IMG/VR virus record: IMGVR_UViG_3300005529_000026
Location: 1-64,000 of that record
DNA: 64,000 bases
Source of the DNA: a virus
Strand: one strand, 5' to 3'
The notes beneath the pieces were generated by a model, which made no database searches, was not told the DNA's origin, and was given only the letters and a program-made list of their open reading frames with translations. A program made the translations under genes and the position numbers. Of this stretch, positions 43 through 63,810 are shown one piece after another (the first letter of the stretch is position 1; each line of letters opens with the position of its first letter).

Positions 43-118
<76 letters not shown>

Positions 119-28251: not shown

Positions 28252-31200
28252 ATGCTGACGTTCAATATCACACAGGGCGGCGTAACTCGTGATTACCGCA
28301 AGTACATCTACGGGCAGCCCGTCAAGATGGACTCTAAGAATGACCCCAAGCTGCTTGACTTTCAGCTTGTACCGCTCGATGGCAGCTTCGTAAAACCCAC
28401 TCGCGGTGCTTACGTGTCCATCACCACGGACACCTACGGTCTCTGGTACACCGGCTACATCACGAACGACCCAGAGCTTATCTATCTGGGCAGCAAGAAC
28501 AACGCGCCTGTTTGGGGTTACGTCCTGAAGGCGACCAGCGATGAATACGCTCTCAACCAGCAGCCGTTAGGCATAATGCCGCCGTTCATCAACACAACAC
28601 AAGGAGAAATTCTTCGCAAGTTGGTGCAGCGTCTAGACCCGAATGGCCTGTTCAATCCGGCTAGCATTTGGGATGGTCAGAAGGTTGCTCGTTACAAGGT
28701 TGACCCCGCGAAGAAGTTTTCTGATGTAGTGAAGGAGTTTTCTGACTCCTCGAATTACACATTCTGGGCTAAGAACCACGTTCTTTTCTTTCAGCAGATT
28801 GACGCCTTGTCGTCGCCTCTTACCCTCAATGGGAACAGCAAACACTTCACTCCGTCTAATCTGCGTATCGCTCCATCTGATGACCGCATCATCAACGATG
28901 CCATCGTTTTAGGAGACATAGAACCGCAGAGCCTTGTACGCGAGTACCATGTAAGCGACGGGTTCACTGGGCGTTTTCCTTTATCGTTCGCACCGTACGG
29001 CGTGGACAGCACGCTGTTACTGGATGATGATTTCAGCAACTCAGCGATTGACACACAGAAGTGGACGGTCAACGACCTTCCGAATAACTATCTACAGGTC
29101 TCTAATGGATACCTGAACGCACTCGGTGGGCCTAATGACGGCACTTATTCCGTTCATCTTGATTCGGCCAGCCTGATTCCTCTAGAGGGATATCTGCGCT
29201 TAACGCATGGCGAGTACGACTTCGTGTCGGCCTCGGATGGCGTCATCGCAAGTATTTGGAGTCAGAGCGTAAATCCGGCGCTCACCGGGTGCGTGTACGG
29301 TATTAAGGTCAACAAGAGCGGCGCTAATACCGTGCTGAACCCCATTGCTGGTGGGTCGGTTGACGGCGGCAGCAGCCTCACTGTTAACTACGCACATCGC
29401 TACATCTTTCGCACGATTATCACGTCTGTGAAGGAGCAGCGACTTCTGAACGATTATGCCTACCGCAATGCGGACGGTACGATTGGGCGTTTCTCTGACG
29501 GCGGTTCTTCGGCGGCGGTTGATGTTCAAACCATCATTACCGAGATTGACCCGTCAACAGCAGATATTATCGGGACGACGACTTGGAATCACACGGTATC
29601 TTTGTCGTCCGCTCAGATGTATGCATACTACGTTCCGGTTGTCACTAACGACCTGCATCTTTCGCTGACCGGCATTACCGTCAGCACACCGACGCAGGCG
29701 CAGCTTTCGCTCCTAGCTAAAGCAGCTAATTCGCCGTTCTACACAGGGGCGTATCAGGCTAAGGTTGTCGGCCCGAACGAGATTGATTCCTTCGACGGAC
29801 AAGCTCCCGTTGCGACCATCACAGACTCAAATAACGGAGCCGTGACGCGCAGCAGCCAGCTAGGTACGCCGCAGTGGAATCCCGGCGCAGCCGCGTTGAC
29901 GTTCTTCAAGAATAGCATCAATCAAACGACGGATATTCCTCCTACCGGCACCATTATTAGACTGGTGTATCGTCGCGCTGGCGCGTCTGTGGCGCGTGTT
30001 CAGGCCGCAGCAAGCATCAACGCTGAAGCAGCGGCATGGGGGGATTCCGGCATTCGCTCGGTCACGCGCAATGATTTGACACCCCGGCCTCGCAATTCAC
30101 GCGAGTGTGAAATGGCAGCGGGCGCTATCGTCAATGACCGCAGCTACCAGCATTACACCGGCACTTACACGCAGCACTCTGGCTACGAATTCAGCACTGA
30201 GCCGACATCCGGCACACTGCTGAAGTTCCTCAATATGCCAGCCAGTTTCCCTAGCGTGCAGGCAGAGGAAATCTCATCGGTGCGTTCTACTCTCTTGCTG
30301 GCAAAGAAAGAGCTTATCCAGCATGAGCTAACGTTCAACGCCCCTGACCGTGTGCGTCAGTTGCTGACGGAGTTTGCCAAGCCTACGGATGTTTTCACGC
30401 CGCAGGATACCGCTGAGGTTCCGCAGTACATTGAGCCGACTGGCGTTCTGGGCGCTGCCCCGGATGATGTTCAGGCTCTAGAACTGGCTAGCTGGACTTC
30501 CACGCAACTTTCTTTCAACACCAACGTGGCTGCTCCATCTGGCGGCGGCTTCGAGGTTCGTTGGACGGACGAATCGTGGGGCGCAGACGATGCTAAGAAT
30601 CTGATTACGCGCACGTCTTCACAGACGTTCAACGTTCCGCGTGTCAGCCGTAATTCCATTATCTTCGTCAAGGCTTATGACGTTCGCAATAATCTGCTGT
30701 GGTCAGAAGACCTGACACAGGCAGCGTGGACAAAGACCCAATGCAACGTCACGAAGACAACTGAAACAAACCCGGATGGCGATAAAGGCATAATCAGCAC
30801 AGTTAACTTCAACGGCGGTAACGTTGTTGCGGTTGTGCAGCAGGCTACATCGGTTGCGGCGAGCGGCAAGCAGTTTGCCTTCTCCGTAAGCATGAAAGGC
30901 GCTGCGGGCACATCTGTGACTGTCCGCGTTAGCAATGGAACGACGAACGTTGTGAACACCAGCGTCCCGATGACGGGTAACTGGATGCGCAAAACGTTTA
31001 GCGGCACATTCGGCGCGGTGTCGGGCAACATCACGGTACATCTTCAGTACCAAGGAAGCCCGGCCTACAGCCTAAAAGTGACTAGGGCTTCCCTAGAGCT
31101 ACGGCTAACCGAAACGGTTTACTGCAAAACCAATTCTGCGGTTTACGGCGCTAACTCTCGTTTCGCAGCCGTCAGTCGCGTGCAGTTTCCGTTGCTTGCT

Positions 31201-61662: not shown

Positions 61663-61752
61663 TGGTGGGGGCGGGAGGAATCGAACCTCCATTCCCCGTA
61701 GGGGAGGCGGTTTTACAGACCGCTGGACTTAGCCAGTTCGTCCATCACCCCC
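61663..61752 (-). tRNA. tRNA-Tyr (GTA anticodon)
   Basis: Minus strand: acceptor GGGGGTG/CGCCCCC, anticodon arm CGGTC-TGTAAAA-CCG with GTA, long variable arm (CTCCCCTACGGGGAATGG) as in bacterial tRNA-Tyr, T arm with TTCGATT, discriminator A and encoded CCA (61665-61663). Reads UAC/UAU codons. Confidence 0.95.
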
Positions 61753-62662: not shown

Positions 62663-62800
62663 CTACCAAAACTTGCGAATGAAATGCACAGCCGTGTAAA
62701 TCACCCCGGCCCAGAATGTCAGCCAGAGAAGAACCGGCGTCAGCATCACGCCTAGTGCGAACAAGCCGCCTATAATGCTTCCTCGATTGTTGTTGCGCAT
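62663..62800 (-). CDS. Small two-span membrane protein
   Basis: 45 residues from ATG 62800, fixed by GGAGGAG four bases upstream. RNNNRGSIIGGLFALGVMLT then PVLLWLTFWAGVIYTAVHFI, one long or two short membrane spans, basic C terminus (RKFW). Too short for most gene finders. Starts 31 bp inside the end of the HNH gene. Confidence 0.6.
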   Translation of the reverse strand: MRNNNRGSIIGGLFALGVMLTPVLLWLTFWAGVIYTAVHFIRKFW

Positions 62801-63249
62801 AACTCCTCCATTGATTTGATGTACTGATACTTGCGCTTGTTAAACTGCTTTTGTGTTCGTCGTTCGTGACAGTTTGCGCAGCGTACTTCACATTTTGCTA
62901 TCTCTGCTGTTATTGCCTCTAAGCCGCAAGCAGTCATGCCTGTAACATCGCGCTTCTTCTCGCCAGTAACGTGGTCGAACTCAAGCACCAACGGGTCAGC
63001 TTCGTCACAATCCACACATGGGTGTGTGGTCAGGTATTCCATCATGTAGGCGAATGCGCGGGAGCGGCGTTCTACGCTTTTAGCGCTGCGGTATTTCTTG
63101 CGGTCAATTTCCGGGTCTGCCTTTTTCCTAGAGGCGTGAATACCTTTGAAGCACTGCCTGCACTTTGACTGACGCCGCCCTTTCTCCCTGTTCTGGAAGG
63201 CAAAGTCATCATCAGGCTTGTTATGATTACAGCCGTTGCAGATTTTCAA
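62770..63249 (-). CDS. HNH endonuclease-like protein
   Basis: About 159 residues (TTG 63249 assumed; the 63282 start would lie in a hairpin). First zinc knuckle KICNGCNHNKPDDDFAF, then SKCRQCFKG; HNH part PCVDCDEADPLVLEFDHVTG, with EFDH and RCANCHERRT, the His-Asn-His catalytic set of the zinc-supported family. Common in phages. The start codon is not supported by a ribosome site; the gene follows the tmRNA terminator directly. Confidence 0.75.
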   Translation of the reverse strand: MKICNGCNHNKPDDDFAFQNREKGRRQSKCRQCFKGIHASRKKADPEIDRKKYRSAKSVERRSRAFAYMMEYLTTHPCVDCDEADPLVLEFDHVTGEKKRDVTGMTACGLEAITAEIAKCEVRCANCHERRTQKQFNKRKYQYIKSMEELCATTIEEAL

Positions 63250-63282
63250 AGAAATAGTTTGGCGGGCATTGCACCCCGCCAA
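63247..63282 (-). terminator. Hairpin and T-rich tail after the tmRNA
   Basis: TTGGCGGG-gtgcaatg-CCCGCCAA (minus strand, 8-bp stem) followed by ACTATTTCTTT. Probably ends the tmRNA transcript; it also precedes the HNH gene. Confidence 0.6.
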
Positions 63283-63289
63283 GGGCGTT

Positions 63290-63612
63290 GAGGAACTGAG
63301 TCGCCGTCACTCAGTGCGTTAGCTGCTGATTAAGCAGCCGCCGCAGCCATAGCCAAAGGCTTGGCAGTTGTTTTTGTCCGCTGATTACGTCAGTCGGCTC
63401 ACGGATTCGTCCATAGCACCTTCAACCAACCCGTCGAAACTTGGCACGCCCATCAAAGCCGCTCAGCCCATCTATCGCATGATGGCAGTCCCTAGAAGCA
63501 CAGGTGCGCTTAACTGTCCGGGTCTGTTGTTCTGAGCGGCTATGGTGGACGTGGCGGGCATCGCAGCCCGCGTCCGAATCGGTAAAGCACTACTTCATAC
63601 GAATCAATCTTG
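63290..63612 (-). ncRNA. ssrA: tmRNA, circularly permuted (two-piece) form
   Basis: Minus strand. First the acceptor piece: GATTCGT helix, GGACGCGGGC T-arm, CACGTCC, then ACCA (63546-63543). Next an internal spacer (63542-63452) closed by GCCGCTCAG/CTGAGCGGC. Then the coding piece: GGGCGTG (63451-63445) pairing with CACGTCC, the tmRNA signature GTTTCGACGGG, ACGAATC pairing with GATTCGT of the first piece, a tag frame ending in Ala codons (AMAAAAA) and TAA inside a GCTGCT/AGCAGC hairpin. It rescues stalled ribosomes with host SmpB. Exact mature ends are not known. Confidence 0.85.
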
Positions 63613-63618
63613 GTTGGT

Positions 63619-63810
63619 CTAGGTGTTGGCGTACATGATACCGCCGACGACCAACGTGATGACCGTGAACACGACAAGCCCAAAAACTCCGTCTGCATGC
63701 GGTCTCCAAGTACGTTTGAACGTCGCTAGGAGAGTAGCAATGAGAATGTTCACGACACCTACGACACCGAAAAACAGAAATGAATCCGCTAACATTCGCG
63801 GAATTGACAT
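63619..63810 (-). CDS. Small two-span membrane protein before tmRNA
   Basis: 63 residues from ATG 63810 (GGAGGA six bases upstream). Spans: FLFFGVVGVVNILIATLLAT and FGLVVFTVITLVVGGIMYA, linked by FKRTWRPHADG. Could be a holin-like or envelope protein. Its TAG is immediately followed by the tmRNA acceptor piece, so both may share one transcript. Confidence 0.7.
   Translation of the reverse strand: MSIPRMLADSFLFFGVVGVVNILIATLLATFKRTWRPHADGVFGLVVFTVITLVVGGIMYANT

Follow-up and report, generated by a model that had tools for sequence, protein, structure and literature searches.

Does the minus strand near the end of this viral stretch encode a tmRNA made of two pieces, and what would such an RNA do in the presumed host of the virus? 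The stretch analyzed here, called the window below, comprises 64,000 nucleotides and is part of a 94,356-base IMG/VR record. The locus probably represents a phage-borne gene for a beta-like, circularly permuted two-piece tmRNA, whose role would be trans-translation with the SmpB and alanyl-tRNA synthetase (AlaRS) of the host. By itself, the window provides one more phage permuted tmRNA; more worthy of attention is the discrepancy between its form and the one apparently used in the presumed host phylum.

An initial annotation, made from the letters of the window, had proposed a phage-encoded, circularly permuted tmRNA, and covariance-model searches support this proposal. The Rfam model of permuted tmRNA (RF04321, curated cut-off 47 bits) matches positions 63605-63330 of the minus strand along the entire model and scores 83.4 bits (E 1.8e-14 in the 64-kb window). 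The order of the segments, acceptor piece, spacer and mRNA-like piece, is the permuted one. The beta_tmRNA model, RF01850, matches 63634-63289 end to end with 53.5 bits (E 3e-15 over the 1.2 kb searched), a score below its curated cut-off of 84, and the locus is therefore described as beta-like and not filed as a beta_tmRNA member. The one-piece tmRNA model RF00023 gives no match overlapping the locus. ARAGORN, a tmRNA finder of the kind also suggested as a check, makes no call at 63605-63330 in the window, possibly because of the unusual T-arm discussed below. Folded without guidance, 63612-63289 reaches −140 kcal/mol; shuffled sequences average −109.6 (z −5.3), and none of 100 was as low. 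This fold reproduces the acceptor stem, the T-arm, the inter-piece helices, the spacer stem and the stop hairpin.

All features of the gene lie on the minus strand. The RF04321 match (63330..63605) runs from the acceptor piece, where it includes the inter-piece helix, to the stop codon of the tag; the below-cut-off beta_tmRNA alignment (53.5 bits) gives a model-based outer extent of 63289..63634. The acceptor piece (63543..63605), which is first in the gene and forms the mature 3′ piece, contains the 3′ strands of the inter-piece helices, including GAUUCGU (63605-63599), the T-arm GCGGGC-UGCGAU-GCCCGC (63554..63571), and the acceptor 3′ strand CACGUCC with an encoded ACCA (63543..63553). The 91-nt spacer (63452..63542), presumably cut out, is closed by the stem AGCCGCUCAG/CUGAGCGGCU, for which 9 bp had been claimed and 10 bp are found. 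The mRNA-like piece (63322..63451), second in the gene and the mature 5′ piece, contains the acceptor 5′ strand GGGCGUG (63451-63445), the D-loop GUUUCGACGGG with GUUUCGAC (63440-63430), the 5′ strand of the inter-piece helix with ACGAAUC (63410-63404), a hairpin/pseudoknot region, the tag reading frame (63330..63365, its resume codon placed by alignment to the beta consensus), and the stop hairpin GCUGCU-UAAUC-AGCAGC (63338-63322), which holds UAA in its loop. A further hairpin, ACUGAGUGACGGCGACUCAGU (63295..63315), lies downstream of the stop hairpin, and the next gene downstream encodes an HNH endonuclease (phrog_2255; 62770..63282, minus strand).

The pairings named in the initial annotation are present: all 7 acceptor pairs between GGGCGUG and CACGUCC, and both strands of the GAUUCGU/ACGAAUC helix, which adds to an inter-piece helix of about 19 bp. 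The acceptor stem has G3:U70 and A73 and is followed by ACCA, so the alanine identity set is present; G3:U70 is the alanine identity pair. The 49 phage permuted tmRNAs compared have 14 distinct acceptor stems, all fully paired; the extraction searched for paired stems, yet every locus found by pattern passed it. Pairs 4-69, 5-68 and 6-67 co-vary in this set, whereas re-dealt pairings are on average 79% paired. The locus resembles RF04321 and RF01850 in its segment order, G3:U70 acceptor stem, ACCA, D-loop GUUUCGAC, inter-piece helix, GCC-AA tag start and stop codon in a hairpin loop. It differs from RF01850 in its 91-nt spacer and its T-arm of 6 bp and 6 nt. All constrained elements are conserved except the T-arm geometry.

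The T-arm combines a 6-bp stem with the 6-nt loop UGCGAU, and is thus not of the canonical type with a 5-bp stem and a UUCRAYY loop, although the overall RF04321 score is still well above the cut-off. All 44 phage tmRNAs that we found by pattern have GGG-TTCGAYT-CCC or nearly so, unlike the window, a comparison biased by the TTCGA that the pattern requires. The T-arm is also canonical in the tmRNAs of three cultured phages (Tunturi_3, 4 and 5) and of three IMG/VR relatives, all found without the TTCGA pattern. The extra C and the extra G of the window T-arm pair with each other, which argues that the arm evolved and is not a sequencing error. In the loop, U54, C56, G57 and A58 appear to be assignable and U55 does not. 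The loss of U55, together with the longer T stem, could weaken the elbow.

The tag frame, GCC AAG CCU UUG GCU AUG GCU GCG GCG GCU GCU UAA, encodes the 11 residues AKPLAMAAAAA, and it ends, as the initial annotation had described, with alanine codons and a stop codon in the loop of the 63338-63322 hairpin. The frame is open and aligns to the beta tag up to the last position of the model. Compared with the beta_tmRNA tag, it is without two middle codons and is extended by the Ala-rich end; the usual LAA end is absent. Alanine tails are said to signal proteolysis, in work attributed to Lytvynenko et al. in 2019. The alanine run of the predicted tag recalls the alanine tails added during bacterial ribosome quality control (PMC8373112). 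Some viral permuted tmRNAs, including that of the relative G409 described below, have predicted tags ending in GR, GV or FAV and not in AA, with frames assigned by a simple rule. Such ends could change or abolish the proteolysis of tagged proteins.

The record that carries the gene is viral, in agreement with the initial claim of a phage-encoded RNA: its genes include terminase, portal, tape measure, RecA/UvsX, ribonucleotide reductase, primase/helicase and DNA polymerase, and a putative tyrosine integrase (L003 15121-16038) was recognized by reading. Its closest cultured relative, Tunturiibacter phage Tunturi_4, is a phage of soil bacteria and infects Acidobacteriota (PMC11924767). Tunturi_4 shares collinear genes with the window virus in the same order, with identities of 50% for terminase, 49-53% for portal, 49% for RecA/UvsX, 47% for primase, 40% for helicase and 38% for polymerase; the next portal after that of Tunturi_4 is only 24% identical. 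From this relationship, at about 50% terminase identity, we infer that the host of the window virus probably belongs to the Acidobacteriota. A portal profile searched against 396 Acidobacteriota genomes gave two distant matches only and no close prophage, and GTDB genomes scanned with the terminase yielded no prophage. Searching IMG/VR with one protein at a time (terminase, HNH or primase) returned few or no relatives; those considered below were obtained through a helicase alignment. The record also contains tRNA genes for Lys, Tyr, Ile, Leu, Met and Thr (window 43-118 and 61663-61752; L002 4034-5173; L003 14069-14143), and the tmRNA sits between the Tyr and Ile genes on the same strand. On the minus strand at record positions 65281-65404 (L002 5281-5404), a tRNA-like match of 39.4 bits, missed by ARAGORN, spans 124 nt and is perhaps a tRNA with an insertion.

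The presumed hosts have a different form of tmRNA. Each of ten named Acidobacteriota genomes, among them Edaphobacter lichenicola M8UP30, has a one-piece tmRNA of about 350 nt, and at E <= 1e-25 the one-piece model RF00023 matches in 343 of the 396 genomes. The other 53 have no tmRNA at this threshold, some of them surely owing to incompleteness. A genuine permuted tmRNA was found in none of the 396 genomes sampled. The presumed host phylum thus appears to use only one-piece tmRNA, and three of its five cultured phages carry the two-piece form. Our literature search, which covered few subscription journals or preprints, found no earlier report of a tmRNA in an Acidobacteriota phage, and this mismatch is apparently unreported. 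One Acidobacteriota genome has two one-piece matches in tandem (G157:C13 201907-202671; 155 and 110 bits).

Three of the five cultured Acidobacteriota phages, Tunturi_3, 4 and 5, carry a permuted tmRNA, with RF04321 scores of 63.3, 79.2 and 86.4 bits, respectively; the same search found none in Tunturi_1 and Tunturi_2. In Tunturi_4 the gene lies at 43941-43532, where ARAGORN agrees, and its place, upstream of the HNH/helicase genes, corresponds to that in the window. The GenBank record has no tmRNA annotated there, and the word tmRNA is absent from the paper on the isolates (PMC11924767). According to that paper, Tunturi_3 and Tunturi_5 are unrelated to Tunturi_4 and to one another. Among the helicase relatives from IMG/VR, three (G406, G409 and G410) carry permuted tmRNAs, and two of 95-100 kb (G405 and G412) have no permuted tmRNA match. 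G3:U70 is retained in the tmRNAs of all six carriers. The Tunturi_4 and Tunturi_5 tags are about 33 amino acids long, compared with 11 residues in the window, and the cores of the Tunturi_3-5 tmRNAs group with one-piece tmRNAs, whereas the window core groups with the beta-like permuted RNAs. BLAST of the window tmRNA region against phage records, near and distant, gave no match.

A real permuted tmRNA gene, inherited or captured, could be decaying and have lost its function. The odd T-arm and the below-cut-off beta score are compatible with decay, and the absence of a permuted tmRNA match from G405 and G412, relatives of similar size, would mean that the gene is dispensable. However, the T-arm change is compensated, with the added C pairing with the added G. 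Decay would also be expected to break the acceptor stem, G3:U70, ACCA, the D-loop, the 19-bp inter-piece helix, the resume codon, the tag frame and the stop hairpin, all of which are intact, and we regard a functionless gene as unlikely. The RNA might instead act as a decoy: by binding SmpB or AlaRS, it would block trans-translation in the host, or redirect it, without rescuing ribosomes. The RNA of phage DS6A, which has little beyond a tRNA-like domain, is reported to inhibit tmRNA (PMC11915505, PMC4131195), and the missing LAA end of the window tag would suit such a role. Yet the DS6A RNA has no tag frame, whereas the window keeps a full mRNA-like piece, an open tag and a stop hairpin, none of which a decoy needs; this makes a decoy distinctly unlikely.

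Integrases often target ssrA or tRNA genes, and the putative tyrosine integrase of this virus raises the question of whether the locus is an att site left behind when a virus integrated at a tmRNA gene. The gene is complete, however, and lies about 30 kb from the integrase within the lytic-gene region. Moreover, the tmRNA of the presumed hosts is one-piece, so that the host target would not be permuted, and this origin is very improbable. Least credible of all, with almost no chance of being right, is an artefact, either a chance match or an upstream tRNA and a one-piece tmRNA taken together for a permuted gene. Upstream sequence joined to a one-piece tmRNA is a known type of RF04321 false positive: the 13 RF04321 matches in Acidobacteriota genomes were rejected as permuted tmRNAs, as 13 of 13 overlap one-piece tmRNAs. 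For the window this type is excluded because no RF00023 match overlaps the locus. The perfect CACGUCC/GGGCGUG pairing and the alignment of the beta model over the whole length also argue against it.

For a functional permuted tmRNA, the reading that we prefer, we propose the following mechanism. A single precursor containing the acceptor piece, the spacer and the mRNA-like piece would be transcribed, and host tRNA-processing enzymes would remove the spacer, by analogy with permuted tmRNAs that have been studied. By the same analogy, the two RNAs would stay together through pairing in the 7-bp acceptor stem and in the long helix between the pieces. G3:U70 would allow charging by the host alanyl-tRNA synthetase. 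With host SmpB, the tmRNA would enter stalled ribosomes, append AKPLAMAAAAA and release the ribosome at UAA. Searches for a virus-coded SmpB were negative for the window virus and for 12 further phage records, related or taken for comparison. The benefit to the phage may be that ribosomes are kept available and unfinished proteins are tagged while it degrades or rewires host mRNA.

The initial annotation had implied that a two-piece tmRNA in a phage is a novelty, and this point is weakened by the existing record. In public phage genomes, 53 have been predicted, for example, in Methylophilales phage Melnitz, and 50 of these 53 are marine or aquatic (PMC9004378). One pattern scan of IMG/VR adds 44 contigs with a permuted tmRNA; a scan with the T-loop pattern TGCGANNCCC...TCCACCA gave at least 120 stretches, most of which would be expected to arise by chance. 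The window tmRNA is one further member of this published class, and the new part is its setting. The Melnitz tmRNA has an alphaproteobacterial affinity and is linked to a glutamine riboswitch, whereas that of the window is beta-like, and no riboswitch in the window reaches the cut-off of its covariance model.

To place the window RNA, a maximum-likelihood tree was built from the tRNA-like and early mRNA-like core (67 rows, 159 columns). It separates, with support of 98/99, a proteobacterial-type permuted group from the one-piece tmRNAs together with the Tunturi-type permuted RNAs. The former group holds the beta consensus, a Pandoraea plasmid tmRNA, the Stenotrophomonas/Xanthomonas phages and the window. 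Neither a single clade uniting every permuted row (61/93) nor a move of the window to the one-piece side (p-AU 0.41) is rejected. On this comparison the window RNA likely has a beta-like affinity, and an independent permutation of the Tunturi type is suggested by the tree, not established. The latter may have arisen in phages and represent a further origin of the two-piece form. We advance only tentatively, and with considerable doubt, the wider proposal that Acidobacteriota phages systematically carry a two-piece tmRNA absent from their hosts, acquired at least twice: as a beta-like type (window, G409) and as a second type, seen in Tunturi_3-5 and in soil viral contigs, with a core that clusters among one-piece tmRNAs. 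On this tentative view, the two-piece form might itself benefit the phage, for example through escape from host control or an anti-ssrA defence, or through a separate tag.

The permuted tmRNAs of the Stenotrophomonas/Xanthomonas phages (DLP_6, Menderavirus, QDWS359, X1, Rb1) score 77-137 bits with RF04321 and fall on the same beta-like side of the tree. These phages are unrelated to the window virus and have ANDD-type tags and, where inspected, a canonical T-arm. Their Xanthomonadales hosts have one-piece tmRNA, and a mismatch of tmRNA form may therefore recur outside the Acidobacteriota phages. In Xanthomonas phages X1 and Rb1 and Stenotrophomonas phages QDWS359 and DLP_6, the permuted tmRNA is not annotated as such.

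The form of tmRNA is usually taken as a marker of bacterial lineage, and here three mutually unrelated cultured phages carry the form opposite to that of their hosts' phylum. The existing plaque system allows a direct test of whether the phage needs its own tmRNA. It can also be asked how a two-piece tmRNA works with an SmpB and a ribosome that evolved alongside the one-piece form, what role the tag plays, and whether permuted tmRNA has further origins outside bacterial chromosomes.

A small protein with an RF-1 domain and GGQ motif (PF00472), which may be a further factor for ribosome rescue, directly adjoins the permuted tmRNA of Tunturi_4 (ORF53, L180 43946-44293) and is absent from the window virus. 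That it replaces the tmRNA at the same locus was rejected, since both are present side by side. Tunturi_3 ORF125 (L330 2989-3327) is 74% identical to it, though the phages are unrelated, and G412, which has no tmRNA match, encodes another at 29640-29879. Tunturi_4 also contains four type-P5 twister ribozymes (RF02684, 48-62 bits) at 58.3-63.2 kb (L181 11349-16149), each in a gap that immediately precedes a coding sequence.
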